The position numbers were made by a program, and so were the translations under genes. Positions 12,416 to 55,699 of a stretch of 64,000 nucleotides of DNA are shown here, one piece after another (positions within the stretch are counted from its first letter, which is position 1; each line of letters begins with the position of its first letter). The notes below the pieces were generated by a model. That model worked only from the letters and a program-made list of their open reading frames with translations, was not told the DNA's origin and ran no database searches. Origin of the DNA: Burkholderiales bacterium (GTDB lineage: Bacteria; Pseudomonadota; Gammaproteobacteria; Burkholderiales; Nitrosomonadaceae); assembly GCA_015075225.1 (NCBI GenBank), contig JABTUQ010000003.1, forward strand, positions 333,107 to 397,106. Direction: 5' to 3'.

Positions 12416-12649
12416 ATGGTTTTGAGCAATGAAGAAGATACAACAATTTATCACGTAGTCATTAATCATGAAGAACAGTACTCAATATGGCCTGAGTATA
12501 AGGAAATACCCAGGGGGTGGCATTCTGTAGGCAAATCCGGGAAGAAAGATGATTGCCTTGCCTATATTGAGGAAGTATGGACGGATATGCGCCCACTGAG
12601 TCTCCGTAAGCAAATGGCTGAGACAGAATCTCAAATCAACCCTCAATAA
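12416..12649 (+). CDS. MbtH-like NRPS accessory protein
   Basis: The 77-aa protein matches the MbtH family over its length: the [10 protein letters not shown] motif, then [20 protein letters not shown] and [11 protein letters not shown]. MbtH proteins bind A domains and are often needed for their folding or activity. GAAAGGTGG precedes the ATG by a normal distance. It is the first gene of the NRPS locus and lies downstream of the repeat-rich control region. Intact. Confidence 0.95.
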
Positions 12650-12672
12650 TTCCACGGTTTGCCTGGTTAAAG

Positions 12673-12900
12673 ATGATTCAGGCTCAAATAAATAATATCG
12701 TTTCTTCCTGGTTTCCAAAAGTGCGTATTAAACCCTCAGTGAGATTGCACCTTTTCTGTTTATCGTATGCGGGTGGCAGTGCTTCGATATATCAGTCATG
12801 GGCAAAGTGCTTTCCTGAGACCATCGATATCAGAGCTGATTCTTCTTTGTTTGAATCATATTGTTCCCGGTTTCATCCTTTTATTCATAAAGCCGCATGA
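12673..12900 (+). pseudogene. Type II thioesterase remnant
   Basis: This 75-codon ORF reads VRLHLFCLSYAGGSASIYQSWAKCFPETIDIRA. That is the first third of an editing thioesterase of the NRPS TEII family, which hydrolyses wrongly loaded carrier proteins. After that point the similarity ends. The GxSxG nucleophile and the catalytic His are absent, and the frame closes after a short unrelated tail (about 240 aa would be expected). The stop overlaps the PPTase start (ATGA). It therefore looks like an internal deletion in an originally mbtH-TEII-PPTase operon. Confidence 0.7.
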
Positions 12901-13691
12901 TGCAAGCGCTGATGTGTAACGAGACAAATACCAAAAATATCCTGCCAAGACGTGTAGTGCAGGTGTGGAAGGCAGATTTGGATACGCATGCACATCAGGC
13001 TGGAGATTTTTATAAAGTTTTGTCACAGGATGAACAGTGTCGTGCCTTTCGTTATCAGTTTGTCAGGGATCGCCAGCGTTTTATTGTTGCTCGTGGAATT
13101 TTAAGGTTTCTGTTGGCAGATTATCTGGATGTACACCCTCATGAAATCAGGTTTGATTACGGTGCCGGCGGTAAACCTGAAGTTATCAAACCAGAAACAC
13201 AGCTCACATTTAACCTGTCACATAGCGGTTCTGCCGTGTTATATGCGATATCCCGGGAAAATGAGATAGGTATTGATATCGAAACATTGCGTTTCGATCC
13301 TGTTGCAGGATCGATTGCCAGCCTGATCTTTTCAGATCGTGAACAGGCAATACTCGATACTTTCCCTGTTGACCAGAAAACAGTGGCACTTCTACGGGGC
13401 TGGACGCGGAAGGAGGCTTATGTAAAAGCCAGAGGTACAGGATTGTTTTTTCCTTTGAAACAGATTGAAGTGCCTTTTGGACCTGTTGTCAGTAACTTCC
13501 GAATAAATACTGAATACCGCCTGCACACAGAGGGTCATTTTCGGTTGTATTCCTTTAGCGTATTCCCGGGGTATGAATCAGCACTGGTCATAGGCGGCGA
13601 TCCTGCATTGATTATGTATAAAACGTGGCCTGAGCAGACTGAGGTTACAGAAGCAGCCACAAGGTACTCAGAAGAGAGTACGTCATGGTAA
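12897..13691 (+). CDS. Sfp-type 4'-phosphopantetheinyl transferase
   Basis: The 264-aa enzyme moves the phosphopantetheine arm of CoA to the serine of carrier domains and would activate the T and ACP domains encoded downstream. The family motifs are present: FDYGAGGKPEV, FNLSHSG, the Mg-binding GIDIETL and WTRKEAYVKARGTGL. Length suits the Sfp group. Its start overlaps the thioesterase-remnant stop, and its stop overlaps the NRPS1 start (13685), so the three readings are translationally coupled. Intact. Confidence 0.93.
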   Translation: MMQALMCNETNTKNILPRRVVQVWKADLDTHAHQAGDFYKVLSQDEQCRAFRYQFVRDRQRFIVARGILRFLLADYLDVHPHEIRFDYGAGGKPEVIKPETQLTFNLSHSGSAVLYAISRENEIGIDIETLRFDPVAGSIASLIFSDREQAILDTFPVDQKTVALLRGWTRKEAYVKARGTGLFFPLKQIEVPFGPVVSNFRINTEYRLHTEGHFRLYSFSVFPGYESALVIGGDPALIMYKTWPEQTEVTEAATRYSEESTSW

Positions 13692-16600
13692 AATTGCTTC
13701 GTTCCGACTGTGCTGTTGTGAATCTGGTGTCGCTCTTACTGCATCGTGTAGATGAATTGGCAGATGCTTGTGCTTATGTGTTCTTAATAGATGGTGAGCA
13801 TCAGGAGCAATCAATAACGTACAAAGAGCTGGATTCCAGAGCAAGAATGATCGCAGGGTGCCTGCAAGCTACTCATAAAGCAGGTGAACGTGCCTTACTA
13901 CTCTATCCATCTGGTCTCGATTACATCGTTGCATTTTTTGCCTGTCTGTACGCAGGACTCATTGCAGTGCCTGTTTATCCGCCATCTCGCCATCATCTGC
14001 GACGGCTTGAGGCCATCATTCACGATGCCACACCCACTATCATACTGACCACTGCCGAGTGGCAATCAAAGTTACAGGGGAATGGCCAGGAAAACTGGGG
14101 ACAAAACCGTTTTAACTGGCTGGCGACTGATCAGCAGCTGAGTGGGGATGCTACACCTGGCTGGAAAGCTTATTTATTAAAGCCGGATGGCCTTGCATTC
14201 TTACAATATACGTCGGGATCTACCGGAACTCCAAAAGGGGTAATGGTAAGCCATGGTAATTTGATGGCTAATCAACGTGCGATTCAGGCAGCATTTAAAC
14301 ATTCCAGCGATACAGTCGTGGTGGGATGGTTGCCGTTCTACCATGACATGGGTCTGATCGGTAACATTCTGCAGCCACTTTACCTTGGCGTGCCTGCGAT
14401 TCTGATGTCACCGATGGCATTTCTGGAAAAGCCGATCCGATGGTTGAACACGATTTCAAAATATCGTGCTACTACCTCTGGCGGGCCTAATTTTGCCTAC
14501 GAGCTTTGTGCTCGGAAAATTACACCAGAACAAATTAGTACGATCGATTTGAGCTGCTGGAATTTGGCTTTTAACGGATCCGAACCGGTACGTGCTGCGA
14601 CTCTGGATCGATTCGCGGATGTTTTTTCTTCCTGTGGTTTTCGCAAAACAGCTTTTTTTCCTTGCTACGGATTGGCAGAAGCAACGTTATTTGTTACTGG
14701 CAGGGCATATGCACCTGAATCCGGGACAAAAAATGCGATATCACCAGTAAGTAATCCATCTCATCAGCCATCTTCGAATTTTGTGAATTGCGGGCACGCT
14801 GATATCGATCATCAGGTCTGTATCGTTAATCCCGAGACAGGGACACTTCGTCCGGACGGAATCGAAGGTGAAATATGGGTGAAAGGTCCCAGTGTGACGC
14901 AGGGGTACTGGAATCAACCGGTAGCATCTGAAGAAACGTTCCGTGCCATGCTCGCAGGATCCGGGGTTCATGAGCTTCCAGAGGTTGATACTTATTTACG
15001 TACAGGCGATCTCGGTATGTTTAAGCGAGGTAATCTGTACGTGACGGGCCGTATCAAGGATCTTATCGTTCTTCGCGGTCACAATTATTTCCCGCACGAC
15101 TTTGAGCAAGCTTTGGATGATGGCGTTGATGCGTTAAGGCCAGGTTGCAGCGCAGCATTCTCAATCAATAACGAGAATGAGGAAATACTGGTCATTGTTG
15201 CAGAAGCCCGACGCAAAAAACTATCCCCCGAGAAAGCCAGAGAAATATTGAATGCCATGCGGCAAGTGCTAAGCGAATCCAGTGATGCACCGATAGGCGT
15301 ATTGGTATTGGTTCCGCCAGGAACCATTCCCAAAACATCGAGTGGAAAAATTCAGCGTCAGGCATGCAAACAAGCCTATCTTGAGCAGCGCATGCCGATT
15401 CTGATGCAGTCTGGTGAACACACTGTTATATCCACGCTGACAAACGTAGCGTATGAAGAGACAGCGGTCGAGTCACTGCGGAATACGTTGCAACAGTCAG
15501 CACAAACACAACGTGCCACTCTTCTGGCAAGTTTTCTCCGCACCCATCTGGCACGGTACCTGCGTATACCCGAGACTGACCTGGACACTACTCGATCCAT
15601 TCGATATCTGGGATTGGATTCTTTAGGTACCGTTGAGCTCAAGCATGCGGTAGATACTTTACTAAATGACGATGTACCTCTGTCATTGTTTTTGTCTGAT
15701 CATTCTGTTCGGGATCTGTCGGAAATTTTGGCGAGTGAGTGGGTAAATACTGACACTTCACCATCTGTTGATATTACTCATGACCAAATATCAGAATCAT
15801 TAGTCTCTTCATTTTCAGAATTGTCCTGTGCGCAACAGGCTATATGGATGGTGCACAGTCTGGAAACCCGGAGTGTTGCCTATAACCTGCATTTTGCCGT
15901 GCAGCTGGAAGGCTTTCTCAAATCGGATAGGGTGCAACAGGCATTTGATCAGTTGCGTGTTCAACATGCGCAACTGCGCATGCGCTATCGCATGATAGAT
16001 GACGTAGTTGTACAGATGCCACTTTTACCTGATGACTGGCCTGAATATTTTGTTGCCGTTGATGCCTCGGGTTGGACAGAAGCTGACATCCAAACAGATT
16101 TTGCTCAGCGTATCCGCAAGCCATTCGATCTGCCTGCTGGGGATGTGCTGCATATCACATGTTATAGCCTGAGTGAGCAGCAACATATCCTGCTTTTCTG
16201 TGGTCATCATATTGCGGTTGATTTACGTTCTGCATTGATTATGCTGAACGACTTGAAATCTATACTCAGTGGGCTGATTTCAGGAGAGAAATCCAATAAT
16301 TCAGGAGTCAATACTGTTCCATATCGCAGTTTTGTGACCTGGCAGCACAATTACCTGCAAAGTAATGCTTGTAAAGTCGACTGGGAATACTGGCAAACAC
16401 AGCTGGCAGGGACCTTGCCGATTCTGGCTTTGCCGATTGATTTTCCCAGACCGCCCATCCCGACATATCAGGGTGCTTCTCAAGATTTCCAACTGGACTT
16501 GAAACAGACGGAGAAGCTTAAACATCTGGGCCAGCAACATGGTGCAACACTGTTCATGACTCTGCTGGCAGTCTACAAAATACTGTTATATCGCTATACC

Positions 16601-19078
16601 GATCAGCATGATCTGATCGTCGGCACCGCCAGCCATGGTCGACCACAGGCGCGTTTCATGAATGTCGTGGGCAACTTCGTCAATCCCATTGCATTACGCA
16701 GTCATCTCAGGCCGACGCTGACTTTCGCGGCTTACCTGCAGCAGATACGGAATATCGTATCAGATGGTCTATCGCATGCTTACTACCCTTTTTCATTACT
16801 GGTAAAACAGCTGCAACCCGAGAGAAATACCGATCACTGGCCTGTTTACCAAACCTGGTTCATGTTGCAGCAGGATAGATCCGATCATGAAGAAAGTTTG
16901 GCCTACTTAACATTAGGAAATGAAGGTAAAAGCCGGAAATGGGGTCGATGGCAACTGACACCAAAGTCCATTCGTGAGCAGATCGAAAATTTCGATTTGC
17001 GGTTGATGGCAGCTGAAAATGACGATGGTATTACGCTGGCATTCAAATATCGCAGTGATTTGTTCCAAGCGCAGACAATCGCGCGCATGGCAGATCACTT
17101 TCAGGAATTAATTGCCAGAATAGTGGCTGAACCTGAAATTAGACTGAGTGAATTATCCCTGTTGACTCATACCGAATGGGACAGACAGGTGAAACAGTGG
17201 AATGCAACCGCAACCCTGTTTCCAAAGAGATCGAGTCTGCAAAGCCTGTTTGAAACACAAGCAAGGAAAACCCCCGGGCAGGCAGCTGCGTCATGCAATG
17301 GGGAAGTTTTGATCTATGCCAGACTCAACTCGCGTGCCAATCAGCTTGCCCATTATCTACGTAGATTGGGAGTCGGCCCGGAAACCATTGTCGGGCTATG
17401 TGTGACACGCTCCCTGGATATGTTGGTCAGTATATTGGGAATACTGAAGGCGGGGGGAGCCTATGTTCCGATCGACCCTAATTCTCCAGCGGAACGGATG
17501 AATGTAGTACTCACTGATGCAAATGCCACAGTGTTGGTTACGCATCAGGATCTTATACGTTGCGCTATCTCTTCAACTATCAAAGTTGTTCATCTGGACA
17601 GGAACAGCGAAACAATTGCTGCCAGATCGAATGCCAATTTGCGTGACATCAGTATTCCTGACCATCTGGCTTATGTGATTTATACCTCAGGCTCGACCGG
17701 TAGGCCTAAAGGGGTTGCGGTGAGCCATGCCAATATCATCAACTCGACCCTGGCTCGCTCTCATTACTATCAGGAGGATATTGAGGGTTTTCTGCTGCTG
17801 TCGTCCTATACCTTTGACAGCTCTATGGCAGGTATTTTCTGGACATTGAGTCGAGGCGGTTGCGTTGTTATGCCATCCGAAGGAGGTGAAAAGGATCCTC
17901 AGGCATTAGGTGGATTGCTATCAATAGAAAAAATAACTCATCTGTTATGCCTGCCTTCGTTTTATGCCGTACTGCTGGCAAGTATTCCTCAGCAGTATTT
18001 CACCCGATTGAAAGCAATCATTGTGGCAGGCGAAGTGTGTTCTTCAAAAATGGTTGCGCAGCATCATCTCAATTTGCCACAAGTGGCTCTATTCAATGAA
18101 TACGGCCCGACGGAAGGTACCGTCTGGAGCAGTGTTTACCCTGTACAGCCGGAAGATGCAAACCGATCAATCCCGATCGGGAAGCCAATTTCCAACATCC
18201 ATATTTATCTGCTGGACAATGATTTAAATCCTGTCCCCATCGGCGTTATCGGAGAAATGTATATCGGCGGTACAGGTCTTGCTCGAGGCTATTATGGTCA
18301 TGGTGCATTAACTGCGGAACGGTTTATTCCTCACCCATTTGGAGAGCAATCTGGTGAACGGCTTTACCGTACCGGTGATCTGGCGCGCTATCGTGCAGAT
18401 GGCGATATCGAATACCTGGGTCGTACCGATCAGCAGGTAAAAATTCGTGGATTCCGTATTGAGCTGGGGGAAGTTGAAACTGCGTTGCTACAGTATCCGC
18501 AGATCAAGGAAGCAATTGTTTTAGTACATGGGGATGGTACTGAAGCTAAACGATTGGTGGCGTATTTGGTGCCCAATGGGGCAGTGGATATCGAAGATAT
18601 CAGGATACATCTCAAAGCACAGCTACCGGATTATATGGTGCCGGCTATATTTGTTGTGCTTGAAGCGATGCCATTGACCACTAATGGAAAAATAGACCGG
18701 AAGGCGTTGCCGGATCCTGAAAATATAAGATCAGCAATACAAGAAGAAATTATCCAGCCACGTAATTCAGTTGAAAAAGCGCTTGTGGATATTTGGATGG
18801 AGGTACTGGATACCCCGCAACCATTTGGTATTCATGATGACTTTTTTCATTTAGGTGGACATTCACTTTCTGCCATTCAGGTAATGGTCAGAATTCAAGA
18901 AAATTTCAAGGTTGAGTTACCGGTAACGAATCTTTTTGAAGCGACTACTGTAGCAAAGCTGGCAGATGTAATCGTACAGCAACAAATCGATGGCCAGGAT
19001 AAAGCATGGGTCGAGTTGCTACTCGATGAACTGGAACAGCTTCCTGATGACGAGATACAAACGTATTTAGCCAAATAA
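13685..19078 (+). CDS. NRPS1: FAAL-ACP-C-A-T loading and first module
   Basis: A protein of 1797 aa. Residues 1 to about 585 are a fatty acyl-AMP ligase (YTSGSTGTPKG near 175, GWLPFYHDMGLIGN). An ACP follows with GLDSLG near 642, then a C domain whose active site is HHIAVDL near 839. Next is an A domain (YTSGSTGRPKG near 1331, NEYGPTEGTVW) and a T domain with LGGHSL near 1722. It should activate a fatty acid and acylate amino acid X1. The extracted specificity code is DSACIAEVW, which I cannot assign. The Gly of HHxxxDG is replaced by Leu, as is common in lipid-accepting C domains. The gene is intact and is followed 12 bp later by the hydroxylase gene. Confidence 0.92.
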   Translation: MVKLLRSDCAVVNLVSLLLHRVDELADACAYVFLIDGEHQEQSITYKELDSRARMIAGCLQATHKAGERALLLYPSGLDYIVAFFACLYAGLIAVPVYPPSRHHLRRLEAIIHDATPTIILTTAEWQSKLQGNGQENWGQNRFNWLATDQQLSGDATPGWKAYLLKPDGLAFLQYTSGSTGTPKGVMVSHGNLMANQRAIQAAFKHSSDTVVVGWLPFYHDMGLIGNILQPLYLGVPAILMSPMAFLEKPIRWLNTISKYRATTSGGPNFAYELCARKITPEQISTIDLSCWNLAFNGSEPVRAATLDRFADVFSSCGFRKTAFFPCYGLAEATLFVTGRAYAPESGTKNAISPVSNPSHQPSSNFVNCGHADIDHQVCIVNPETGTLRPDGIEGEIWVKGPSVTQGYWNQPVASEETFRAMLAGSGVHELPEVDTYLRTGDLGMFKRGNLYVTGRIKDLIVLRGHNYFPHDFEQALDDGVDALRPGCSAAFSINNENEEILVIVAEARRKKLSPEKAREILNAMRQVLSESSDAPIGVLVLVPPGTIPKTSSGKIQRQACKQAYLEQRMPILMQSGEHTVISTLTNVAYEETAVESLRNTLQQSAQTQRATLLASFLRTHLARYLRIPETDLDTTRSIRYLGLDSLGTVELKHAVDTLLNDDVPLSLFLSDHSVRDLSEILASEWVNTDTSPSVDITHDQISESLVSSFSELSCAQQAIWMVHSLETRSVAYNLHFAVQLEGFLKSDRVQQAFDQLRVQHAQLRMRYRMIDDVVVQMPLLPDDWPEYFVAVDASGWTEADIQTDFAQRIRKPFDLPAGDVLHITCYSLSEQQHILLFCGHHIAVDLRSALIMLNDLKSILSGLISGEKSNNSGVNTVPYRSFVTWQHNYLQSNACKVDWEYWQTQLAGTLPILALPIDFPRPPIPTYQGASQDFQLDLKQTEKLKHLGQQHGATLFMTLLAVYKILLYRYTDQHDLIVGTASHGRPQARFMNVVGNFVNPIALRSHLRPTLTFAAYLQQIRNIVSDGLSHAYYPFSLLVKQLQPERNTDHWPVYQTWFMLQQDRSDHEESLAYLTLGNEGKSRKWGRWQLTPKSIREQIENFDLRLMAAENDDGITLAFKYRSDLFQAQTIARMADHFQELIARIVAEPEIRLSELSLLTHTEWDRQVKQWNATATLFPKRSSLQSLFETQARKTPGQAAASCNGEVLIYARLNSRANQLAHYLRRLGVGPETIVGLCVTRSLDMLVSILGILKAGGAYVPIDPNSPAERMNVVLTDANATVLVTHQDLIRCAISSTIKVVHLDRNSETIAARSNANLRDISIPDHLAYVIYTSGSTGRPKGVAVSHANIINSTLARSHYYQEDIEGFLLLSSYTFDSSMAGIFWTLSRGGCVVMPSEGGEKDPQALGGLLSIEKITHLLCLPSFYAVLLASIPQQYFTRLKAIIVAGEVCSSKMVAQHHLNLPQVALFNEYGPTEGTVWSSVYPVQPEDANRSIPIGKPISNIHIYLLDNDLNPVPIGVIGEMYIGGTGLARGYYGHGALTAERFIPHPFGEQSGERLYRTGDLARYRADGDIEYLGRTDQQVKIRGFRIELGEVETALLQYPQIKEAIVLVHGDGTEAKRLVAYLVPNGAVDIEDIRIHLKAQLPDYMVPAIFVVLEAMPLTTNGKIDRKALPDPENIRSAIQEEIIQPRNSVEKALVDIWMEVLDTPQPFGIHDDFFHLGGHSLSAIQVMVRIQENFKVELPVTNLFEATTVAKLADVIVQQQIDGQDKAWVELLLDELEQLPDDEIQTYLAK

Positions 19079-19090
19079 TAAAAAGTCTTT

Positions 19091-20721
19091 ATGAATAGCA
19101 ATCAACCGCTTTATCGTCTTGCTGATCATGTGGTAATCGAGCCGCTGATCGATCAGTGGATAGCCTGGCCACATAACTTTTCACCGATTCTATATGGCTT
19201 TCATCTGCTGAATTATCAGAAAGCAGTATTGACTTCCTATCTCAAGAATCCGGCAATTCATATTAAATCCAGTAATAACCCCAAGCTGCTTGGCGGTCCG
19301 TTTGTCAATATTCCGGGGGAACGTGCTGATGAAGTCAGGCAGTTACTTGAGGTGATGGAGAAAAACCATGCTGATTTGCTGGAGCTGGCCCAGGATCTGA
19401 CAACATTTCAGAATACATTAAAACAGGAAGCCAAAGGACAAAGCCTGGAGATCTATTACAAGCAGTTACCTGATACGTTGAGTGGTTATGTTGAGCTGGG
19501 TTACGACTATCTGAATAACCCGGTGGTGCGCTGCATAGAAAGCCTGTTTTATGAAAGTTCCTATTACAAAAGGGATATCCAGTCATTTCGGATGTTTGCA
19601 TTGCAGCAGGATGAAGCCAGACCTTATTACATGAGTACACCGCGCCTGGCTGATTCACACGATCTGGAATGGCATAAACCTTTTGATGATCCTGCAGTGG
19701 ATGCGTTGTACCACCTGGATATCTGTCCTCAGCCACTTGCTGAAATAAGCGCCATATTGGGTTTGGAGGATAACCCGAACCTGTTGCCCTTGTTGTCCGA
19801 AGAACCTTTGACACCGATACCGCCCTGGTCAGAAACAGGTGTACGTCTGCGTTATTTTGGTCATGCAACCGTATTGATCGAGGTCGAGGGGATCACAATA
19901 TTGACGGATCCATTCATTTCCGTGATTCCGGAAAAATCAGGTACAGCACGATATAGCTTCCGGGATTTACCTGCGAAGATCGATTATGTGTTGATCACGC
20001 ACGGCCATCATGATCATTTTGTTTTCGAGTCACTTTTGCGCCTCAGGCATCGCATAGACACGATCGTTGTGCCGAGGAATTCCAGTGTTTATTACGGTGA
20101 TTTGTCGCTCAGCAGCTTGCTCAACGGCTGGGTTTCAAACGGGTTCAGGGAATGGATGCACTGGACACAATTGCATTGCCCGGCGGAGGAATTACCGCAA
20201 TACCTTTTCTCGGTGAACATTGTGACTTGCTTCATGCGAAGTCGGGATATGTAGTGCGTTTTGGAGATGAGCAGATTCTGTTTGCAGCAGATTCATGCTG
20301 TCTGGATAAGCAGATCTATAGAAATGTAAAAAATATCCTGGGTCCGATATCAACTGTCTTTATTGGTATGGAATTTATTGGTGCACCATTGTCGTGGGTT
20401 TATTCACCATTCCTGCCTGTCAAATCTGAGCGTGACTACGACCAATCGCGTCGTTCGCATGCAAATGGTGCAGACTCGGCGCTGGATCTGCTGCAATCAG
20501 TTGAAGCGAAAAAAGCCTTCGTTTATGCGCTGGGTCGAGAGCCCTGGCTCAAATATTTTATGGCGCTGGAGCCGACCGAAGATGACCCTTATATGAAAGA
20601 AATAAATAAATTTGTAGCAGCTGCGCAAGCACGAGGAATAGATGCGCAGATGTTGTATGGAAAGAAAGATTTATTTTGTGAATCTGGAAAATATCAATTC
20701 CGAGATGCCATAAGCATATAA
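19091..20721 (+). pseudogene. CmlA-like diiron amino-acid beta-hydroxylase, one frameshift
   Basis: Two frames join into about 543 aa. The N-terminal 240 residues (YRLADHVVIEPLIDQWIAW) precede a metallo-beta-lactamase fold. Its metal motif THGHHDH has H304, H306, D308 and H309. The downstream part contains GMEFIGAPLSWVYSP and ALGREPWLKYFM. Size, two-part layout and position inside an NRPS operon match the CmlA family, which beta-hydroxylates T-domain-bound amino acids with a diiron centre. A one-base loss near 20129 moves the frame; the second half then runs from about 20130 to 20721. A plain MBL hydrolase is the alternative. If the indel is a sequencing error the gene is intact. Confidence 0.7.
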
Positions 20722-20736
20722 AGGAAGGAACAGATA

Positions 20737-28717: not shown

Positions 28718-28799
28718 AAGGGAGTTTTTAGAATGAACAAAGAATCACTTCAAATTATAAGGGAGTTTTTAGAATGAACAAAGAATCACTTCAAATTAT
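28718..28799 (+). repeat. 41-bp tandem duplication spanning the receptor RBS and start
   Basis: AAGGGAGTTTTTAGAATGAA and the next 21 bases occur twice in a row, at 28718-28758 and 28759-28799. Each copy holds an AGGGAG ribosome site, an ATG and the first eight codons of the receptor gene. The copies look identical. Confidence 0.9.
28733..28777 (+). CDS. 14-codon leader ORF created by the duplication
   Basis: The ATG of the first repeat copy opens a reading of 14 codons (MNKESLQIIREFLE). It ends in a TGA (28775-28777) that overlaps the receptor ATG (28774-28776). It has a good ribosome site. It probably has no function as a peptide but may couple or throttle translation of the receptor. This is inferred from sequence only. 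Confidence 0.4.
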   Translation: MNKESLQIIREFLE

Positions 28800-45948: not shown

Positions 45949-46022
45949 GACTGATTACATTAGTTCTGATTGGAGCGAAATTACGTAAATTTTAAGAGCC
46001 TACAGATTAAGGTTGGAATACG

Positions 46023-47366: not shown

Positions 47367-48338
47367 ATGAATACTGCTGCTGTTAATTCTAAAAAGAAAG
47401 AACTGCTTCGTGGCTATCAACTTATAACCGAGTACCTTTCTATAAAGAAAGGATATAAGCCGAATCACACTCTAATTTCAAAAATAAAATATATAGTAAA
47501 ACTTCTGGAATATCAATTTCTCTTCCATTATTTTGGGAGCCCTCCTAAATGGCGGATATTTCTACGAAAATTTAGTGGGAAACGTACTTTACCGGATTTT
47601 TGTATTATTGGAGAAATGAAAAGTGGTACTAGCGACTTGTCAGTCAATCTATTGCTGCATCCAAATATTATGGCACCTCTTGCTAAAGAATTCAGATCGG
47701 CTGATCCAGAAGATTGGTATATATATTATCCGACGGAGCGGCAAAAAGAGAGGCATGCTAAGCGTTATGGCCTTGCACTCTCACCTTATTTGGTACCTGG
47801 TCTTGATTGGATGGAAAGAACTTATAATTTCTCTCAAATACAACCAAACACTAAAGTCATACTAGTATTGAGAGATCCTGTAAAACGTTTGTATACTCAT
47901 TGGAAATGGGAAGTTTTTATATCAGGTAAAAAATGTGCAGATAAATTCCCATTTTTGAGAACATTTACTGCTTATGTCGATCAAGCTCTGGCATTATTTC
48001 CTGAAGGCAGAATGTATACTGCTGTTAATAGTGATCCTTTACGTTTAGGTATTTACTGGAAAGTAGTAAGTTACTGGATGGAGTGTTTTGGTCGTAGCAA
48101 TATACTGATACTCGATGTGGCTGATTATTTTGCTGATAGAAATAAGTTTTTAGGACAAATTCACAGATTCGTTGGGCTACCAGATTTTGAATACCCTATA
48201 AGCAATTATAAAGTAAATGAAAATCCTCTTGTTTTGCCACCTCCTGATGATAATAGCATACAAAAATTGGTTGATTTTTACAGACCACATAATGAAAAGC
48301 TCTGGATGCTGATCAATAAAAAGTTTGACTGGTGTTGA
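47367..48338 (+). CDS. Sulfotransferase of the carbohydrate type
   Basis: The 323-aa protein has the PAPS loop FCIIGEMKSGTSDL (residues 78-91) and the 3'-phosphate motif VILVLRDPVKRLYTHW near residue 168. This is the arrangement of heparan/chitooligosaccharide-type sulfotransferases, and it differs from the two neighbouring enzymes. It has no SCP2-like tail. An N-terminal stretch of about 75 residues is basic and has no recognised domain. The acceptor could be a hydroxyl of Thr, Ser or a beta-hydroxylated residue of the peptide; that is inference from the locus. The region is AT-rich compared with the flanking exporter. Confidence 0.85.
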   Translation: MNTAAVNSKKKELLRGYQLITEYLSIKKGYKPNHTLISKIKYIVKLLEYQFLFHYFGSPPKWRIFLRKFSGKRTLPDFCIIGEMKSGTSDLSVNLLLHPNIMAPLAKEFRSADPEDWYIYYPTERQKERHAKRYGLALSPYLVPGLDWMERTYNFSQIQPNTKVILVLRDPVKRLYTHWKWEVFISGKKCADKFPFLRTFTAYVDQALALFPEGRMYTAVNSDPLRLGIYWKVVSYWMECFGRSNILILDVADYFADRNKFLGQIHRFVGLPDFEYPISNYKVNENPLVLPPPDDNSIQKLVDFYRPHNEKLWMLINKKFDWC

Positions 48339-48384
48339 AAGGCCAATTTTGCATATTTATATGCAAAATTTATGGGGTGTAATA

Positions 48385-49617
48385 ATGCAAACAGATCACT
48401 CTCCTGTCTTTATTTTGTCTTGTGAACGTTCCGGATCGACATTACTGAGGATGATTATAGATGCTCACCCAGAAATTGCATGTCCCCCACAATTAAATTT
48501 AGGACAAGCTTGTAAACATTTATATAACTTGGTGTATTACTCTATTGGGCAAACCTATAAAGGTGATACTGAATCTGATAGACGCCAGTGGGTGATTTCT
48601 GAAATACAAAAAATGGTTGGTTCAGTAATGCAGCGTTATGCTGATAATAAGAAAAAGAAACGCTGGTGTGAGAAAACTACGCTCAATATCAACTATATCA
48701 AGCTGTTGTCTGAGATATTTCCGAATGCAAGATATATATGCCTTTATCGGTATAGTATGGATGTTATTTATTCTTGTCTGAAATTTAATACATTAGGATT
48801 TATGTCAGAACTCTCACCGTATGTTAGAGATAAACCTGGGAATTTAGTTGATGCGATGGCTTTGAATTGGCTAGATAAGAATGAAAAAATACTTGAATTT
48901 GAGAAAGAAAATCCAGATAAATGTTTTCGAGTGCACTATGAAGATATTGTTGCGCAACCCAATGAAATATTGGAATCTACATTTAGATCTATTGGTGTTG
49001 AATGGAGAAAAGATATATTGAATAAAGTGTTTTCATCCCATCATGATTTGGGCCCAGGAGACTTAAAAGTAGTTTTTTCAGAAAAAATTAATACCAATTC
49101 AATTGGTAGGGGAAAAATGATCCCAGTGTCGTCGATTTCAAATGTAGTGTATCAACATATAGATCAAGTAAATGAAAGACTGGGGTATAAAAGTCTACGT
49201 GAATTTTATGAAAAAGAGAAAGCTACTGATGGAAATATCTCTATTGAAGATTCAAGAAAGATATTTAATGAACATCGGGTACTTGAAAATTTTTTTCTTC
49301 AGCATACAGATGAGATTTTAACGAAGCAGTGGATAAAAATGGACCAACTGCGCGGTATGTGTCGTTTTGATGTGAGCGAAGAAAGTTGGATTGTAAATTT
49401 AACGATAGGCTCTGCTGAGATTCGTAGATCTTTGGAAGAAGATAATGAAGATTGTGTTATTACAATCGTTAAAGAGGCCTTTTGCCAGTTAGTTAATGGA
49501 GTAGCTAGTGTTGGAGAGATTTATGAGAGAGGTGAGATATCAGCATCTGGAAACATTAATTTGGCATTGCAATTTGGAAAGCTGGTTTTTGAGCATCTGT
49601 TAATTAAAAAATACTGA
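48385..49617 (+). CDS. Sulfotransferase with C-terminal SCP2-like domain, copy 2
   Basis: The 410-aa protein is paralogous to the one at 46023. It has the PAPS loop FILSCERSGSTLLR at residues 9-22, CLYRYSMDVIYSC, and a C-terminal SCP2-like region from about residue 320 (WIVNLTIGSAEIRRS, GEISASGNINLALQFGKLV). The start at 48385 (MQTDHSPVFILSCERSGST) is preferred over 48325, because the homologue starts in the same place relative to the loop and the upstream part overlaps the previous gene. Its stop lies 5 bp before the exporter start. Two related enzymes may act on two positions of the peptide. Confidence 0.85.
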   Translation: MQTDHSPVFILSCERSGSTLLRMIIDAHPEIACPPQLNLGQACKHLYNLVYYSIGQTYKGDTESDRRQWVISEIQKMVGSVMQRYADNKKKKRWCEKTTLNINYIKLLSEIFPNARYICLYRYSMDVIYSCLKFNTLGFMSELSPYVRDKPGNLVDAMALNWLDKNEKILEFEKENPDKCFRVHYEDIVAQPNEILESTFRSIGVEWRKDILNKVFSSHHDLGPGDLKVVFSEKINTNSIGRGKMIPVSSISNVVYQHIDQVNERLGYKSLREFYEKEKATDGNISIEDSRKIFNEHRVLENFFLQHTDEILTKQWIKMDQLRGMCRFDVSEESWIVNLTIGSAEIRRSLEEDNEDCVITIVKEAFCQLVNGVASVGEIYERGEISASGNINLALQFGKLVFEHLLIKKY

Positions 49618-49622
49618 ATATC

Positions 49623-51308
49623 TTGCATTATTTCAATGTAGTCAGGGAGCTGTTTACCGGGAGGTATATTAGTTTAGTGTTTGTCGTTATGGCCGGCAGC
49701 ATTAGCGGATTAAGCGGTATTGTTCTATTGGCGCTTATTAATTCTTTTTTACACGCAGCTAATACGTTTGATGAAAAAAACGCCTTTATTTTTCTTGGGC
49801 TGGTTACATTAGTCATTGGTACCCGGATTGCATCGTCAGTCGGTATGGTGCGGCTTGTTCAAGCTATTGTCCGTGATTTACGTTTGCAGTTGAGCCGTCA
49901 GATTATGGCGGCACCTTATAGTGTGTTTCAAAAGCTCGGTAGTGCGCGTTTGCTGGTAAACCTGACGGAAGATGTATCGGTGATTTCGCAGGCATTGCGA
50001 CGGGTTTCACAAATCTGCATCAATATAGCATGGTTGATTGGTGGCTTGGTTTATATGGCATGGTTATCGTTAAGCCTGCTGTTGTTTGTCATTGGTGTGA
50101 TTGCATTGGGTGTAATTATTTATTATCTAAACGCGCACCTTGCAATGCGACCGCTATACAGTGGCCGCGAGCAGGACAATGTGCTTTATGCACATTTCCA
50201 GGCGCTAACGCAAGGTATTAAGGAACTTAAATTACATCGTTCCCGTGCACAGGATTTTCTGAAAAGTGGATTGATTCCAACGATAAAAGCCAGTTGCCAG
50301 TTCAATATTTCAGCGATGACTTTTTTTGCTTTTGCGGCAGCGTGGGGTGGCGTCGTGCTTTACGTGTTGATGGGCCTCGTGTTGTATGGATCACATAATT
50401 GGTGGGGTGTTGCCGATGAAACGGTGGTTTCAGGCTACATCCTGACGCTTTTGTATATTTTTGGCCCGATTTCGATGTTGATTGACAGTATTCCGGAATT
50501 GGGTCGGGCAAAAGTATCGCTTAAAAAGATTGAAATATTACGCTGCAAATTGGAAGATGAAATTGAAATAACTGGCGAGGCAGCATTACAAGAAATATCT
50601 GCACAACCGTGTACGATTGAGTTAGAAGGCATCTGTTATGGTTATCACCACGATGGCAGCAGCTTTACGCTCGGTCCATTGAGCCTGGTACTAAATCCAG
50701 GTGAATTAGTTTTTATTACGGGTGGAAACGGTAGTGGTAAATCCAGTCTCATGTTGTTGCTGATAGGCCTTTATACACCGGAACAAGGTTGTGTGATATT
50801 AAATGGCGAACTGGTGACTGATGCGAATCGTGGAGTATATCGTCAGCAATTTTCTGCTGTCTTTTCCGATTTTTATCTTTTTGAAAGCTTGCTGGGGCTA
50901 TCGGGTAAACAGGTCGATCAGCAAGTACAGCGCTATTTAAAACAATTACAGCTTGATCACAAGGTGTCCGTGAAAGAGGGTGTATTGTCAACCGTCGCGT
51001 TGTCGCAAGGGCAGCGTAAACGCCTTGCATTGCTAACCGTATTGCTGGAAGATCGGCCGGTTTATGTATTTGATGAATGGGCAGCCGACCAGGATCCACA
51101 GTTTAAGGAAGAATTCTATACAAGTATACTGGCTGATTTGAAAGCACGTGGAAAAACGATTGTCGCGATTACCCATGACGACCGATATTTTCATATCGCG
51201 GATCGGTGTGTCAAGCTGGAAAATGGGCAAATTCTGGAAATTACCGAGCATCCGGGTCTGCGAGCGCATCGATCGGCAGTGATCAATAATCAGGAATCAT
51301 CAGCTTGA
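49623..51308 (+). CDS. Cyclic-peptide-type ABC exporter (PvdE/SyrD-like)
   Basis: A 561-aa fused permease-ATPase. Six hydrophobic segments lie in the first 300 residues. They are followed by the ATPase with Walker A GGNGSGKSS (about residue 365), the signature VALSQGQRKRLAL (about 460) and Walker B VYVFDEWAADQDP. This is the group of PvdE, SyrD and YojI, which move acylated peptide precursors over the inner membrane. The start is TTG at 49623, just after the sulfotransferase stop, so translation is probably coupled. GTG at 49678 behind GGGAGG is a possible alternative. The stop overlaps the acylase start. Intact. Confidence 0.88.
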   Translation: MHYFNVVRELFTGRYISLVFVVMAGSISGLSGIVLLALINSFLHAANTFDEKNAFIFLGLVTLVIGTRIASSVGMVRLVQAIVRDLRLQLSRQIMAAPYSVFQKLGSARLLVNLTEDVSVISQALRRVSQICINIAWLIGGLVYMAWLSLSLLLFVIGVIALGVIIYYLNAHLAMRPLYSGREQDNVLYAHFQALTQGIKELKLHRSRAQDFLKSGLIPTIKASCQFNISAMTFFAFAAAWGGVVLYVLMGLVLYGSHNWWGVADETVVSGYILTLLYIFGPISMLIDSIPELGRAKVSLKKIEILRCKLEDEIEITGEAALQEISAQPCTIELEGICYGYHHDGSSFTLGPLSLVLNPGELVFITGGNGSGKSSLMLLLIGLYTPEQGCVILNGELVTDANRGVYRQQFSAVFSDFYLFESLLGLSGKQVDQQVQRYLKQLQLDHKVSVKEGVLSTVALSQGQRKRLALLTVLLEDRPVYVFDEWAADQDPQFKEEFYTSILADLKARGKTIVAITHDDRYFHIADRCVKLENGQILEITEHPGLRAHRSAVINNQESSA

Positions 51309-53737
51309 GCAATAAATTGTCATTAAGGTCACGAGATGCTATGCGATCTAGATTGGGCATTACATTTAGGATCATAGTCAGTATTTTTTCAATACTGCTA
51401 GTTATGGTCAGTATAGTTTATCTGATCATGCACCTATCTTTAGCAGATGGTGAAACTGAAGCGACAATAATAGGTTTGTCTGCACCGGCTTCAGTTGAAA
51501 AAGATCGATTCGGTGTGCCGAATATTGCTGCACAATCGAAAACGGATGCCTTCCGGGCGTTGGGTTATGTGGTTGCACGCGACCGCTTGTTCCAGATGGA
51601 TTTACTGCGGCGTAAGAGTGCAGGGCGGCTTGCTGAGATTTTTGGCGAAACCGCGTTGCCACATGATAAGAAACAACGTACGTATGGGTTTGAGCATGTG
51701 GCAAAACAGGTGATATTACAGTTGCCTGATGATCAGATCGCATTGCTGGAAGCTTATGTGAATGGCGTCAATAGCGTGATTGACAATATGACCGTTGCGC
51801 CTTTTGAATTTCTGTTGCTGAATTATCGCCCCGATCGCTGGCGATCGGAAGACAGTGTGCTGATCGTGCTCGATATGTTTATAACGCTCAATGGTTCTGA
51901 AGCATTTGAACGAAAAATGAGCATCATGGCGCAAGCATTGCCTGCAGATATTTATACGTTTTTGACACCACGAACAGATCATTATACGCAGGTAGTATTG
52001 GGAGAAGCAGTAGATACGGTAGAGGATTATCCAGTTCCTACTGACTCATTAGCCGCACTGTTGTCTACTAATGTATCAAAAAAGTATACCAATCTGGTGC
52101 AGCCAAATTTTATGCAGGTCGGCTCGAATGCCTGGGCGGTGTCCGGCACCAAAACTCGGGATGGCAGGGCTATATTGGCGAACGATATGCATCTGAGGAT
52201 TTCGGTGCCGAATATCTGGTACCGCAGTCAGTTGCAATATGACGATAAATTAATTGCCGGTGTGAATTTGCCCGGGACGCCATTAATCATTGCGGGTGCG
52301 ACAAAGCATCTGGCCTGGGGACCAACTTCCCTGGCGGCTGATATTCTCGATCTGGTAAAAATTGAGGTTAATCCCGACAATCCGACAGAATATCGTACAC
52401 CGGATGGCTGGGAACGTTTTGGTATCCGGCATGAAACAATTGTGGTTAAAGGCGGGGCATCACAAGAGTTAGCAGTGCAGACTACGATTTGGGGGCCTGT
52501 GTCAGCGCAATTGCTGATGGGACAGCCGGTTGCCCTACATTGGACGGCGCTTGATTCTAGTGCAATTAGTCTTGACCTGCTTAATATCGATCAGATGTAT
52601 ACGTTACAGCAGGGGCTTGACTTAATAAATCATACTGGTGGGCCGCCGTTAAATATGCTATTGGCCGATCATACTGGTGAAGTGGGTTGGACGATCATGA
52701 GCCGGATTCCGATGCGTAGTGGGCCAGCAGCATTTGACGGATCGATCAGCCGATCATGGGCGGATGGTGCAATCGGTTGGGTCGATTATATTTCACCAGA
52801 TGAACTACCACGTCTTGTTAATCAGGATTTCGTTGTCAATGCCAACAACCGCAGTATTGAGAAGAATTATCCTTATACAATCGGGCATGCGTTTGCCAGT
52901 GGTTATCGTGCATACCGCATCTCAGAACGTTTACATACGTTGAGTAAAATTAACGAAACTGACATGTTCCAGTTACAGTTGGATACGGTATCAGAAGTTT
53001 ATCGTGTGTATCGTGACATCGCACTTGCGGTACTCACGCCTGACATGCTTGCTGAGCGACCAGATCGCATTACGTTGCGTGATCACCTGCAAGCGTGGAA
53101 TGGAATGGCTGAGCCGGGCAGTTTGGGGTTAGGTCTGGTCAAACAATTCCGCGATAATCTCGCCCAAACGGTATTTGAACCATTGCTACAAAGTGTCCGG
53201 ATGCTGGATGATGAATTCCAATATTTCTGGCCATATCTGGATGTGCCATTACTGGCTTTGATCAAAACTAACGATGTGCGGTTGTTACCTGATCAACAAC
53301 GTTATCTGGATTGGAACACCTTTCTTCTGGCACAACTTGAAAAAAGTGCGCAGGAACTCATGCGTGAATATTCCGTCGATTCGTTGCAGGATTTAACCTG
53401 GGAAAAAATAAATATTGCAAAATATACGCATCCGCTTAGTCAAGGTATTCCGGGTATCAGTCAGTTCTTGGACTTTCCGAGTGATATGTTGCCGGGTTGC
53501 AGTTTTTGTGTGCGTGTAGATTCAGTCAATGCGGGTGCAAGTATGCGGCTTGTTATATCGCCGTCTTATTGGGAAGGGGGCATATTGCATACACCAGGCG
53601 GTCAGTCTGGTCATCCGCTTTCAGCGCATTATCAAGATCAGCACCCCTATTGGGTGAAAGGACTGCCGATTGCTTTCAAAGCTGAAGTGGTATCGGATTA
53701 TATATTAAAGCTTGTGCCAAAAGCTGATGGTCAGTAA
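51305..53737 (+). CDS. Periplasmic penicillin-acylase-family amidase (PvdQ-like)
   Basis: The 810-aa Ntn-hydrolase has an N-terminal membrane anchor or signal (ITFRIIVSIFSILLVMVSIVYLIMH). The alpha chain starts ASVEKDRFGVPNIAAQS, with YVVARDRLFQMDLLRR. The beta chain should start at the serine of QVGSNAWAVSG (about residue 275), which is both the autoproteolysis site and the nucleophile. Members include PvdQ, which removes the fatty acid from pyoverdine precursors. With a FAAL at the start of the line and a PvdE-type exporter next door, deacylation of the exported peptide is the natural role. The TTG start (51305) overlaps the exporter TGA stop. Confidence 0.88.
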   Translation: MSNKLSLRSRDAMRSRLGITFRIIVSIFSILLVMVSIVYLIMHLSLADGETEATIIGLSAPASVEKDRFGVPNIAAQSKTDAFRALGYVVARDRLFQMDLLRRKSAGRLAEIFGETALPHDKKQRTYGFEHVAKQVILQLPDDQIALLEAYVNGVNSVIDNMTVAPFEFLLLNYRPDRWRSEDSVLIVLDMFITLNGSEAFERKMSIMAQALPADIYTFLTPRTDHYTQVVLGEAVDTVEDYPVPTDSLAALLSTNVSKKYTNLVQPNFMQVGSNAWAVSGTKTRDGRAILANDMHLRISVPNIWYRSQLQYDDKLIAGVNLPGTPLIIAGATKHLAWGPTSLAADILDLVKIEVNPDNPTEYRTPDGWERFGIRHETIVVKGGASQELAVQTTIWGPVSAQLLMGQPVALHWTALDSSAISLDLLNIDQMYTLQQGLDLINHTGGPPLNMLLADHTGEVGWTIMSRIPMRSGPAAFDGSISRSWADGAIGWVDYISPDELPRLVNQDFVVNANNRSIEKNYPYTIGHAFASGYRAYRISERLHTLSKINETDMFQLQLDTVSEVYRVYRDIALAVLTPDMLAERPDRITLRDHLQAWNGMAEPGSLGLGLVKQFRDNLAQTVFEPLLQSVRMLDDEFQYFWPYLDVPLLALIKTNDVRLLPDQQRYLDWNTFLLAQLEKSAQELMREYSVDSLQDLTWEKINIAKYTHPLSQGIPGISQFLDFPSDMLPGCSFCVRVDSVNAGASMRLVISPSYWEGGILHTPGGQSGHPLSAHYQDQHPYWVKGLPIAFKAEVVSDYILKLVPKADGQ

Positions 53738-53794
53738 ATATGTTGGGACTCTCTTCTATTGACAGCCAAATTTCTTCCTCATCAAGACCCAAGC

Positions 53795-54760
53795 TTATTT
53801 AAAGTAGGTTTTAAATTCTTCAATAAATTGACCAATCTGGTCAATAGGTAAGGTGTTGATCCCTGCAGCACTTTTTCGTCCACCACCTGATGGGAATTTG
53901 AGAGCCAATTGATCTGCAGGCAGTGTTTTTCTAGTAATAGGTGTGCGTATACTAACTGTACAGGTGTCGCCTGTATTTTCGGTAATAATAGCGTGTGCGC
54001 GATCAGGGAATTGATTGGCAAGTTTACTAATATAAGTACCATTAACTCGATGTGCCCATTTTTCATTACGAAGTAGAATTATCGCTGATTCAGTAGATTG
54101 ATATAAAAAAGGACTGGTTTGTGCCATTGCAATATCTTTCTGGTAACCGGTTTCTAAGGTATCGTAAATTAAAGGGTCTTCCTGTATAAAATTAAGCGGT
54201 GAATCATATTGTCGCAAATAGCCGTACAACACATCCGGGTGATAAAACAGGTCAGATAAGTTTTCACCATAGCTATTGTAATTGATATAGATACCGAGCT
54301 TTTGAAGCAGGCATAACGACTTATGATCCAATCCAGAGTTTTTACCTAATGACATAGCTATATTATTCATGTTATCGCCGAATGCGGCAACTAATGCCCA
54401 CTCACGGAACTGGCCACTAATATATTGGTCTACGAGTAGCCCAGTACAGATAGTTGATGATTGGTCATTTATTATTGTTTCCAATCTGGGGTGATTTATA
54501 GGTACGCCGCTGTAATGATGATCAAAATATTTTATGGAAGCACCAGAATTTAATAATCTCAGAACATCCAGGTGGTTTTTGTCAAATGAGATATCTAATA
54601 CAGTGATTTGGTCATCTGGAGTTACATTAACGTGTCTGAGCAGATTGATATCACGTTTTACACCTGTGACAAGTTGCGCATTCTGAGGGTTTACCTTACG
54701 TAACTGTATCAGCGCGCAGATGCCATCAGCATCTCCATTGAAGACGTCAATATAACTCAT
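53795..54760 (-). CDS. DHH/DHHA1 phosphoesterase, possible pAp phosphatase
   Basis: A 321-aa protein. FNGDADGICAL (residues 7-17) and YFDHHYSG (78-85) are the DHH metal motifs, and GGGRKSAAG (about 292-300) is the DHHA1 substrate motif. Relatives include RecJ, c-di-AMP phosphodiesterases and NrnA, which degrades nanoRNA and dephosphorylates pAp. Every PAPS-dependent sulfation releases pAp, which is toxic. A DHH enzyme beside three sulfotransferases and an APS-kinase gene could clear it. The metal-dependent phosphoesterase call is solid; the pAp role is inference. It converges on the acylase gene and lies 15 bp after the CysC reading. Confidence 0.8.
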   Translation of the reverse strand: MSYIDVFNGDADGICALIQLRKVNPQNAQLVTGVKRDINLLRHVNVTPDDQITVLDISFDKNHLDVLRLLNSGASIKYFDHHYSGVPINHPRLETIINDQSSTICTGLLVDQYISGQFREWALVAAFGDNMNNIAMSLGKNSGLDHKSLCLLQKLGIYINYNSYGENLSDLFYHPDVLYGYLRQYDSPLNFIQEDPLIYDTLETGYQKDIAMAQTSPFLYQSTESAIILLRNEKWAHRVNGTYISKLANQFPDRAHAIITENTGDTCTVSIRTPITRKTLPADQLALKFPSGGGRKSAAGINTLPIDQIGQFIEEFKTYFK

Positions 54761-54775
54761 GACGAATACACTCTT

Positions 54776-55699
54776 TTATATCAACCGATTTAGTATAGAT
54801 TCAACAGCAGCGTGTGGTGATAATTGGGTTGTCTGAATATGAATTTCAGGTGATTCAGGTGGCTCATATGGGCTATCAATCCCAGTGAAGTTTTTTAATA
54901 TGCCGTTGCGTGCTTTCGAGTAAAGACCTTTTACATCACGACGCTCGCATTCTTCTAAATCAGTATCAATGAAAATTTCAATAAATTCATCTACCGCAAA
55001 CAGTTCACGTGCCATACGTCGTTCCCGGCGAAAGGGAGAAATGAAGCTGACTAGAACAATTAATCCTGCATCAACCATTAGTTTTGCGACTTCAGATATG
55101 CGCCGTATGTTTTATATGCGATCAGCATCTGTAAAATCTAAGTCTCTACATAGGCCGTGTCGAATGTTATCTCCATCCAGCAAGTAAGTATGTTTATTAC
55201 TCTGGTATAAACGTTTCTCAAGTAGATTGGCAATTGTCGATTTACCTGAGCCAGATAAGCCAGTAACCCAGATGCATTTGGGAGCTTGTCGTTTTTGTAT
55301 CGAACGTTTAGTTTTGTTAACTGATAATGTTTGCCATTTAAGATTCTTGGCAGGGCGAAGAGCAAAGATAATTCCGGTACCAACGGTTTCATGCGTTTGT
55401 TTATCAATCAGCAGGAAATTATTTGGGTCTCGTTTGCTGTTGCTGGAGTGCCAGAGCATTAATGGTTCATTTGTATACAGATTAACTCTACCTGTTTCAT
55501 TCGCATTTAATACATGTTCAGCTAGAGGCACATCAGTATTGATATTAGTATGATATTCAATACCTGTTATTGTAGCTATTGCTTCTTTATCACTCAAAAT
55601 TATTTGATACTGCTGTCCCGGTATTAAGGGTTGTTTACCCATCCATATGATATCGGCTTCAAATTGACTGGCTATTCCAGGCATATTTCCAGCTGTCAT
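54776..55699 (-). pseudogene. cysC: CysN C-terminal part fused to APS kinase CysC, with an internal TAA
   Basis: The reverse-strand reading 55699-55112 has about 130 residues like the last domain of CysN (FEADIIWMGKQPLIPGQQY), with no GTPase domain. APS kinase follows (IWVTGLSGSGKSTIANLLEKRL, residues 144-165; LLDGDNIRHGLCRDLDFTDADRI). A TAA (55112-55114) stands where GAA is expected ([14 protein letters not shown]). The same frame then continues through [17 protein letters not shown] and ESPEIHIQT to 54776. This is one nonsense change, not a frameshift. APS kinase makes PAPS from APS and ATP. The lack of the CysN GTPase means ATP sulfurylase must come from elsewhere. Activity is doubtful as written. 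Confidence 0.8.

Follow-up and report, generated by a model that had tools for sequence, protein, structure and literature searches.

A 64,000-nucleotide stretch of DNA from a bacterium of the Nitrosomonadaceae (hereafter the window; positions 333,107 to 397,106 of contig JABTUQ010000003.1, assembly GCA_015075225.1) carries a nonribosomal peptide synthetase (NRPS) locus that probably specifies, or did so until recently, a secreted peptide for scavenging metal: a sulfated, acylated and histidine-rich nonribosomal metallophore whose export and deacylation would resemble those of pyoverdine. An original prediction, made from the letters of the window, had proposed an acyl-peptide, probably sulfated, that would be exported and stripped of its acyl chain in the manner of pyoverdine, and the gene families identified herein support it. 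The locus is real and larger than that prediction stated. The window lies on contig 13 of a 2.48 Mb genome (19 contigs, 95.5% complete), whose host we call Nitrosomonas by inference.

Gene content of the locus

The open reading frames (ORFs) of the locus were annotated using Pfam and NCBIfam scans together with local hidden Markov models (HMMs); domain matches reached E-values down to 1e-180 and chance matches are therefore no concern. Read 5′ to 3′, the locus runs from MbtH and a 4′-phosphopantetheinyl transferase (PPTase) through a FAAL-ACP-C-A-T synthetase, a CmlA-type hydroxylase, a C-A-T-E-C-A-T synthetase, a TonB-dependent siderophore receptor and a PepSY_TM protein to the TubC_N-C-A-T-C-A-T and C-A-NMT-T-TE synthetases (C, condensation; A, adenylation; T, thiolation; E, epimerization; NMT, N-methyltransferase; TE, thioesterase), and ends with two sulfotransferase-SCP2 fusions (ST-SCP2; SCP2, sterol carrier protein 2) on either side of a third sulfotransferase (ST), a TIGR01194 exporter and an acylase. 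To the right of the acylase lie a DHHA1 protein and a CysNC remnant, both on the minus strand, followed by a second PepSY_TM gene and genes for an outer membrane factor (OMF), a membrane fusion protein (MFP) and a resistance-nodulation-division (RND) pump, which probably belong to the locus. The synthetase domain order had been predicted exactly, and both the scans and the local HMMs agree with it. The receptor, PepSY_TM, hydroxylase, MbtH, PPTase and the damage described below had all been overlooked in the original prediction. The features, in window coordinates, are:

11513-11782, unstranded: remnant, at the left locus edge, of the insertion sequence (IS) family also present at 33578-35098 (match to G000:C13:344619-344888, 87% identity)
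12416-12649, +: MbtH-like protein (PF03621, 1.3e-23)
12897-13691, +: PPTase (PF01648, PF22624)
13685-19078, +: NRPS-1, FAAL-ACP-C-A(His, DSALIAEVW)-T (Pfam/NCBIfam scans, local HMMs, code alignment)
19091-20721, +: CmlA-type diiron beta-hydroxylase (PF18456, 279.8 bits, cut-off 25; PF13483)
20737-28672, +: NRPS-2, C-A(DSVLLAEVW, His-like)-T-E-C-A(Thr)-T (domain scans, code alignment)
28774-30963, +: TonB-dependent siderophore receptor (TIGR01783, 363 bits vs cut-off 223.5; PF00593, PF07715)
31051-32268, +: PepSY_TM protein, candidate metal-release reductase (PF03929, 1.3e-59)
32369-40474, +: NRPS-3, TubC_N-C(split)-A(Thr)-T-C-A(Ser)-T (domain scans, code alignment)
33578-35098, unstranded: 1.5-kb IS with DDE transposase fragments within the fourth C domain (borders estimated from the flanking C-domain match)
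40558-45948, +: NRPS-4, C-A(His, DSALIAEVW)-NMT-T-TE (domain scans, code alignment)
46023-47246, +: ST-SCP2 fusion 1 (PF13469, PF02036)
47367-48338, +: ST 2, no SCP2 match (PF00685)
48325-49617, +: ST-SCP2 fusion 3 (PF13469, PF02036)
49623-51308, +: cyclic-peptide-type ABC exporter (TIGR01194, 451.4 bits vs cut-off 286.2)
51305-53737, +: Ntn-hydrolase acylase (PF01804, 5.8e-154)
53795-54760, −: DHHA1-domain protein (weak match; in the window only among 19 mapped sequences)
54776-55699, −: CysNC remnant, CysN C-terminal part plus APS (adenosine 5′-phosphosulfate) kinase, one in-frame stop (domain scans)
56386-57651, +: second PepSY_TM protein (PF03929; 54% identical to its counterpart at the corresponding place in Methylotuvimicrobium buryatense 5G)
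57671-63535, +: OMF-MFP-RND efflux pump, OMF frame change at ~57920-58140 (M. buryatense 5G has these genes in the same arrangement downstream of its acylase)

Adenylation codes and the predicted peptide

Specificity codes of the A domains were extracted by motif anchoring from Stachelhaus positions and then again from a common alignment, the latter version being used for all counts. Relatives of the locus were read on fetched stretches, several of which are limited by contig ends. In the window, A1 and A6 carry DSALIAEVW, A2 DSVLLAEVW, A3 and A4 DFWNIGMVH, and A5 DVWHISLID. For Thr, Ser, Asp and diaminobutyrate (Dab) the readings follow codes that we take to be indicative of these residues. 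The six window codes are predicted to specify His, a His-like residue, Thr, Thr, Ser and His, the Thr, Thr and Ser at positions 3–5 being as originally predicted and the same by both extractions. DSALIAEVW is given, in the accessible part of a published account, as a His code that accepts beta-hydroxylation (PMC12283262). The predicted chain would be roughly acyl-His-His-Thr-Thr-Ser-(N-Me)His, with an E domain after residue 2. The original prediction had left A1, A2 and A6 open. It had also expected any metal ligands to be unusual, a view that finds no support if these codes are read correctly, as histidines can supply ligands.

Once A pieces with <300 matched residues and six FAAL rows had been dropped, 64 amino-acid A domains remained, comprising 33 of His type (31 exactly DSALIAEVW), 17 of Ser type, 3 Thr, 4 Asp (confined to two loci), 5 Dab and 2 other, both of them acidobacterial. 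Without the latter two, His-type codes account for 33 of the 62 A domains over 18 proteobacterial loci, the remainder being Ser, Thr, Asp or Dab, and at least one His-type code is found in 17 of these loci (the exception, G240, has one readable domain).

That the locus lacks a TauD-type hydroxylase, as had been stated, is still so among the ORFs scanned, but the CmlA-type enzyme at 19091 had been missed; it combines CmlA_N (PF18456) with a metallo-beta-lactamase-fold domain (PF13483), though its frame is broken. In each of the seven proteobacterial loci having CmlA (window, G197, G167, G169, G219, G210 and G215) the gene directly follows a His module, which by chance would occur with a probability of ~0.012 at the observed His share, in a test picked after the data were seen. 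The count excludes three more CmlA matches from the acidobacterial genome, which lie on contigs other than that of its ST-SCP2 gene. A Cupin_8/JmjC-like gene is present in six loci (G173, G211, G279, G263, G169 and M. buryatense), and because five of these are without CmlA in the mapped stretch its product may be an alternative hydroxylase. All five Dab-code loci (G118, G173, G210, G211 and G279) carry a class-III aminotransferase-family gene, consistent with a local supply of Dab. Carbamoyltransferase-family genes in four methanotroph clusters (G101, as loci L023/L050, G169, G197 and G219) and a UDP-glycosyltransferase-like gene in three (G101, G173 and G219) suggest additional decoration of the peptide.

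Sulfotransferases and sulfate activation

All three predicted sulfotransferases were recovered, as matches to PF13469 or PF00685. The motifs RSGST and YRxxxDV were also seen, presumably those that bind the phosphosulfate. An AlphaFold2 model of fusion 1 (mean predicted local distance difference test score, pLDDT, 82; predicted template-modelling score, pTM, 0.66) matches, in Foldseek, the curacin (CurM) sulfotransferase and human TPSTs (E ~1e-10) as well as the olefin-synthase sulfotransferase, and the model separately matches SCP2 structures, one of them titled as holding a C16 fatty acid; because of this entry, the ST-SCP2 enzymes may act on the acylated precursor. A simple scheme of one sulfotransferase per Ser or Thr was rejected, since four loci with ST-SCP2 lack a Ser/Thr code in the A domains that could be read and G219 has four Ser codes and one ST-SCP2. 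In an acidobacterial metagenome-assembled genome (MAG9, locus L029) the ST-SCP2 gene stands directly before a FAAL-ACP-C-A-T-E-C-A-T gene in which neither of the two readable A domains has a His code, and an APS kinase is nearby; the fusion may also serve another type of peptide.

The APS-kinase gene of the original prediction did not prove to be intact: it is part of a CysNC remnant whose 5′ part is apparently gone and which has one in-frame stop, and the 95.5%-complete assembly yielded no second APS kinase match.

Export, deacylation and uptake

The exporter had been described as PvdE-type and passes the cut-off of the cyclic peptide exporter family TIGR01194, which we take to be the family of PvdE. 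The call of a PvdQ-like acylase stood only in its broader sense. The protein is a penicillin-amidase-type Ntn acylase (PF01804) with a hydrophobic N-terminal segment, judged by eye, and a catalytic beta-chain N-terminal Ser (Ser274, in GSNAW, aligns with beta-chain N-termini), but as PvdQ proper it was rejected, reaching 53.7 bits against the cut-off of 950 of the NCBIfam equivalog NF051460 over residues 269-437 only, and its best solved relative in the PDB is a D-succinylase. A second acylase of M. buryatense 5G, at ~1,382 kb, stands apart from any other mapped cluster gene. The receptor passes the cut-off for TonB-dependent siderophore receptors (TIGR01783); the Pfam scan reported no STN domain in it, and this signalling domain is present in all four methanotroph receptors tested.

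Distribution and conserved linkage

A first scan, using a three-sequence ST-SCP2 alignment against a named genome collection, retrieved eight loci: four in Methylobacter, one each in a Methylococcaceae genome, M. buryatense 5G and an Acidobacteria MAG, and one in Nitrosomonas LK110. Later scans used an 11-row alignment. In the order of M. buryatense as sampled (Methylococcales), ST-SCP2 was found in 20 of 201 genomes, always at full length. The class sample gave 4 of 369 (the window's own genome and M. buryatense at full length, G547 and G591 as weak partial matches), that is, 0/367 full-length and 2/367 partial once the first two are removed, and the phylum sample, which overlaps it, gave 2 of 398 (own genome and a partial match in G742). 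The enrichment in the order corresponds to a Fisher p of 5e-10 for full-length matches (20/201 vs 0/367) and 5e-8 with partials, although genomes of one order are not independent. Within the family, 4 of 125 genomes matched: the window's own, G024, G057 (truncated at the contig edge) and G1068 (weak, partial). ST-SCP2 relatives occur in two other Nitrosomonas genomes, and G057, next to the edge of its sulfotransferase gene, shows C-A(DSALIAEVW)-T, an exporter and an acylase.

Linkage of the sulfotransferases to the NRPS genes, whose absence from orthologous loci would have refuted the original prediction, did hold and left it standing: it was found in 16 of the 20 Methylococcales genomes, which have A or C domains on the same stretch as ST-SCP2; the other four (G103, G263, G235 and G193) end at contig ends, with a carrier domain only in G263. 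Exporter and acylase are likewise on the ST-SCP2 stretch in 16 of the 20, being on another contig in G105, while G193 is a 3.7-kb contig. Family-wide content was counted over 19 mapped sequences (the short loci L024 and L026 were mapped and stand outside the 19), and TonB receptor, PepSY_TM, exporter and acylase are each present in 16. Accessory families, defined by clustering and named from the Pfam matches of one or two members apiece, include FecR (11 of 19), extracytoplasmic function (ECF) sigma factor (9), class-III aminotransferase (6), Cupin_8 (6), APS kinase (5, including the window remnant) and carbamoyltransferase (4).

Trees of the acylase and the ABC exporter place the window next to LK110 (support 100/99 and 98/94); they are midpoint-rooted, which leaves the direction of transfer undefined. 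No FAAL was found in the LK110 stretch examined. The G+C content is 0.49-0.57 in the left flank, 0.36-0.45 over much of the locus and 0.50-0.56 on the right side, a dip that would fit an acquired island.

Damage to the locus in this genome

According to the local HMMs, the 1.5-kb IS splits the C domain of module 4. Its family has 18 matches in the genome, this copy included; ten of the others are near-full-length, with 90-96% similarity and differing lengths, another stands at 75%, and the rest are fragments. The family is an old and decaying one. The hydroxylase frame is open only to about 20254, and the next open stretch (20152-20721) is in another frame and without a family match of its own. 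NRPS-2 has a frame change in its E domain and an in-frame stop between C3 and A3, and NRPS-3 has frame changes at A5/T5 (about 39886-40385). The breaks concentrate in the NRPS, CmlA and CysNC genes, of which open relatives occur elsewhere; receptor, PepSY_TM, the three sulfotransferases, exporter and acylase have open frames, but the OMF gene outside the locus is also broken. Since the IS and the frame breaks hit NRPS genes, the hydroxylase and the only APS kinase found, production of the peptide in this genome is doubtful.

We consider it quite probable that the locus is a relic here, production having been lost and the host perhaps surviving as a receptor-only user of its neighbours' product, a reading compatible with the metallophore explanation of the family. 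Besides the IS in C4, the frame changes in CmlA, E and A5/T5, the stop after C3 and the interrupted, apparently 5′-truncated APS kinase, it is favoured by the receptor, PepSY_TM, sulfotransferase, exporter and acylase frames that remain open, and by M. buryatense 5G, which likewise retains receptor, sulfotransferase, exporter and acylase beside broken NRPS genes. Against it, the read type of the assembly is unknown and some breaks might be sequencing errors, which the IS can hardly be; moreover, sulfotransferases, exporter and acylase are useless without production, so that the loss would have to be recent. The M. buryatense 5G cluster (L028 / L040-L041, about 720-753 kb) has a group II intron ORF and a transposase gene alongside its broken NRPS, and then shows the PepSY-OMF-MFP-RND order of the window.

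Proposed maturation and choice of metal

Gene content, the His/Thr/Ser code matches, the conserved linkage and the narrow distribution in the sampled genomes are the observations from which we infer the product, its order of maturation, the sulfation sites and the metal. A FAAL-loaded acyl chain would start the six-residue peptide, roughly acyl-His-His(epimerized)-Thr-Thr-Ser-N-methyl-His, of which one His would probably receive a beta-hydroxyl group from the CmlA-type enzyme while on the assembly line. Sulfotransferases dependent on 3′-phosphoadenosine 5′-phosphosulfate (PAPS) would sulfate hydroxyl groups, and the SCP2 domains of two of them, being of a lipid-binding type, may hold the acyl chain. 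The TIGR01194 exporter would then move the acylated precursor to the periplasm, where the Ser-Ntn acylase would strip the acyl chain and the RND pump send the peptide out; the metal complex would re-enter via the TonB receptor and release its metal upon PepSY_TM-mediated reduction. From export to reductive release, these steps are proposed because of the gene families and the biology of pyoverdine.

Methanotrophs and ammonia oxidizers depend on the copper enzymes particulate methane monooxygenase (pMMO) and ammonia monooxygenase (AMO), and the host genome has two AMO (PF02461) matches in open frames of equal score and length (G000:C13:63714-64418 and G000:C17:291-995). Copper is somewhat favoured over iron as the metal, because imidazoles would dominate the ligands, none of the hard ligands typical of iron was seen, and copper monooxygenases are needed by most of the hosts found. 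It is a tentative step further, short of probable, to see here a hitherto undescribed class of multiply sulfated, His-dominated nonribosomal chalkophores common to Nitrosomonas and Methylococcales, with lipid-anchored precursors, ST-SCP2 handling and release by a periplasmic acylase.

Several observations weigh against the metallophore proposal or its metal. No TonB receptor was found in the fetched stretches of LK110, G240 and the acidobacterial relative, and neither exporter nor acylase in those of G197, G219 and the acidobacterial relative, whose two readable A domains also lack a His code. Four loci with ST-SCP2 (G167, G173, G210 and G279) have no Ser or Thr among their readable codes, leaving the sulfation sites unsettled, and a cruder first extraction of codes differed from the alignment-based one at several domains. 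The link to copper is drawn from the biology of the hosts, with descent as a confounder, most hosts being of one order, and FecIR/TonB regulation serves iron as well as copper systems.

The same molecule might instead be an iron siderophore, in which beta-hydroxy-His, Asp and carbonyl donors bind Fe(III) and the FecIR pair and PepSY_TM reductase serve iron uptake. A receptor within the TonB-siderophore family, genes of the FecR family in 11 and of the ECF sigma family in 9 of the 19 mapped sequences, and the four Asp codes in two loci all point this way, as do beta-hydroxy-Asp and beta-hydroxy-His, which are known in siderophores according to the accessible text of PMC12971057. Yet no hydroxamate, catechol or TauD gene was seen in the Pfam/NCBIfam scans of the locus ORFs, and FecIR-type pairs have also been proposed to regulate methanobactin in some operons, as far as the consulted sections of PMC3621798 go. 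Nor was there a clear Fur-box signal: a 19-bp consensus, scanned over 18 loci without a positive control, gave 19 matches at ≥14/19 where 12.6 were expected, none of them just upstream of the eight sigma genes scanned (the ninth, in G279, lies outside the scanned stretch), and a shared-motif search upstream of these eight returned the ribosome-binding/start region only. The scan counts weakly against iron regulation, and we regard an iron siderophore as a serious but rather unlikely alternative. A lipopeptide antibiotic or signal, with an acylase that merely activates a prodrug and a TonB receptor that imports something else, would fit the RND pumps close by in the window and several relatives, and FAAL-started acyl-peptides and activation by acylases are common outside metal uptake; however, TonB receptor and PepSY_TM each recur in 16 of the 19 mapped sequences and the residues are limited to His, Ser, Thr, Asp and Dab in 62 domains, which makes this explanation improbable.

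Comparison with known systems

To our knowledge, the means by which gammaproteobacterial methanotrophs and ammonia oxidizers acquire copper for methane and ammonia oxidation are largely open. If the copper proposal is true, the locus family would represent a second, non-ribosomal answer, beside methanobactin, to the copper demand of AMO and pMMO, would provide a directly testable His-rich sulfated candidate in culturable methanotrophs, and would account for the co-occurrence of sulfotransferases with NRPS and uptake genes in such hosts. Its chelator type would be one unused by the metallophore mining rules described in the available part of PMC12971057. In the sections available, a review names no siderophore or chalkophore biosynthesis for Nitrosomonas europaea (PMC9693385) and a sludge-genome survey reports no NRPS clusters in Nitrosomonas (PMC9765116). 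The cluster type is undescribed in the literature searched, which left out most subscription journals and preprints; relative to it, the parts are known singly and their combination is new.

Pyoverdine is matured by PvdE, PvdQ, FpvA, FpvG and PvdRT-OpmQ, and its first modules, Glu-Tyr-Dab, form the chromophore. The locus shares with it an NRPS primed with an acyl group, an exporter of the TIGR01194 family, an Ntn acylase whose beta chain begins Ser-Asn, a TonB receptor, a PepSY_TM protein and a tripartite efflux pump, and differs in having no chromophore-type codes, an acylase that fails the PvdQ model, a His-rich peptide, sulfotransferases and an RND pump. Membership in the pyoverdines was rejected, the codes being His, His-like, Thr, Thr, Ser and His with no chromophore gene recognized among the ORFs scanned, and so was a nonribosomal metallophore with known chelators, as catechol, hydroxamate and TauD-type Pfam/NCBIfam matches were absent among the locus ORFs, which offer His codes and CmlA instead. 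Corrugatin and ornicorrugatin are acyl-peptide siderophores with beta-hydroxy-His, and thus similarly acylated peptides with His and hydroxy-amino acids; unlike them, the locus family has His at about half of the positions, a CmlA-type rather than a TauD-type hydroxylase, sulfotransferases and an acylase.

Methanobactin, as far as the sections consulted describe it (PMC3621798), is likewise a metal-capturing peptide of methane oxidizers, sulfated in Methylocystis, with a PF00685 sulfotransferase (MbnS), a TonB receptor and, in some operons, a FecIR-like pair. In contrast to its proposed ribosomal origin and heterocycle/thioamide ligands, the locus is a multimodular NRPS with His codes; no search aimed at MbnA/B/C was made. 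Methylocystabactin is described, in the accessible text, as a catecholate siderophore of alphaproteobacterial methanotrophs (PMC13251462). The NRPS of Methylococcus capsulatus Bath (MCA2107/MCA1883) differs in its ornithine-type starting module with an acetyltransferase domain and its separate C-TE module, and the available part of its description mentions no FAAL, His code, sulfotransferase or acylase (PMC517821); according to the same text, it has been proposed to scavenge copper, and it shares with the locus family the setting of a gammaproteobacterial methanotroph NRPS suggested to bind this metal.

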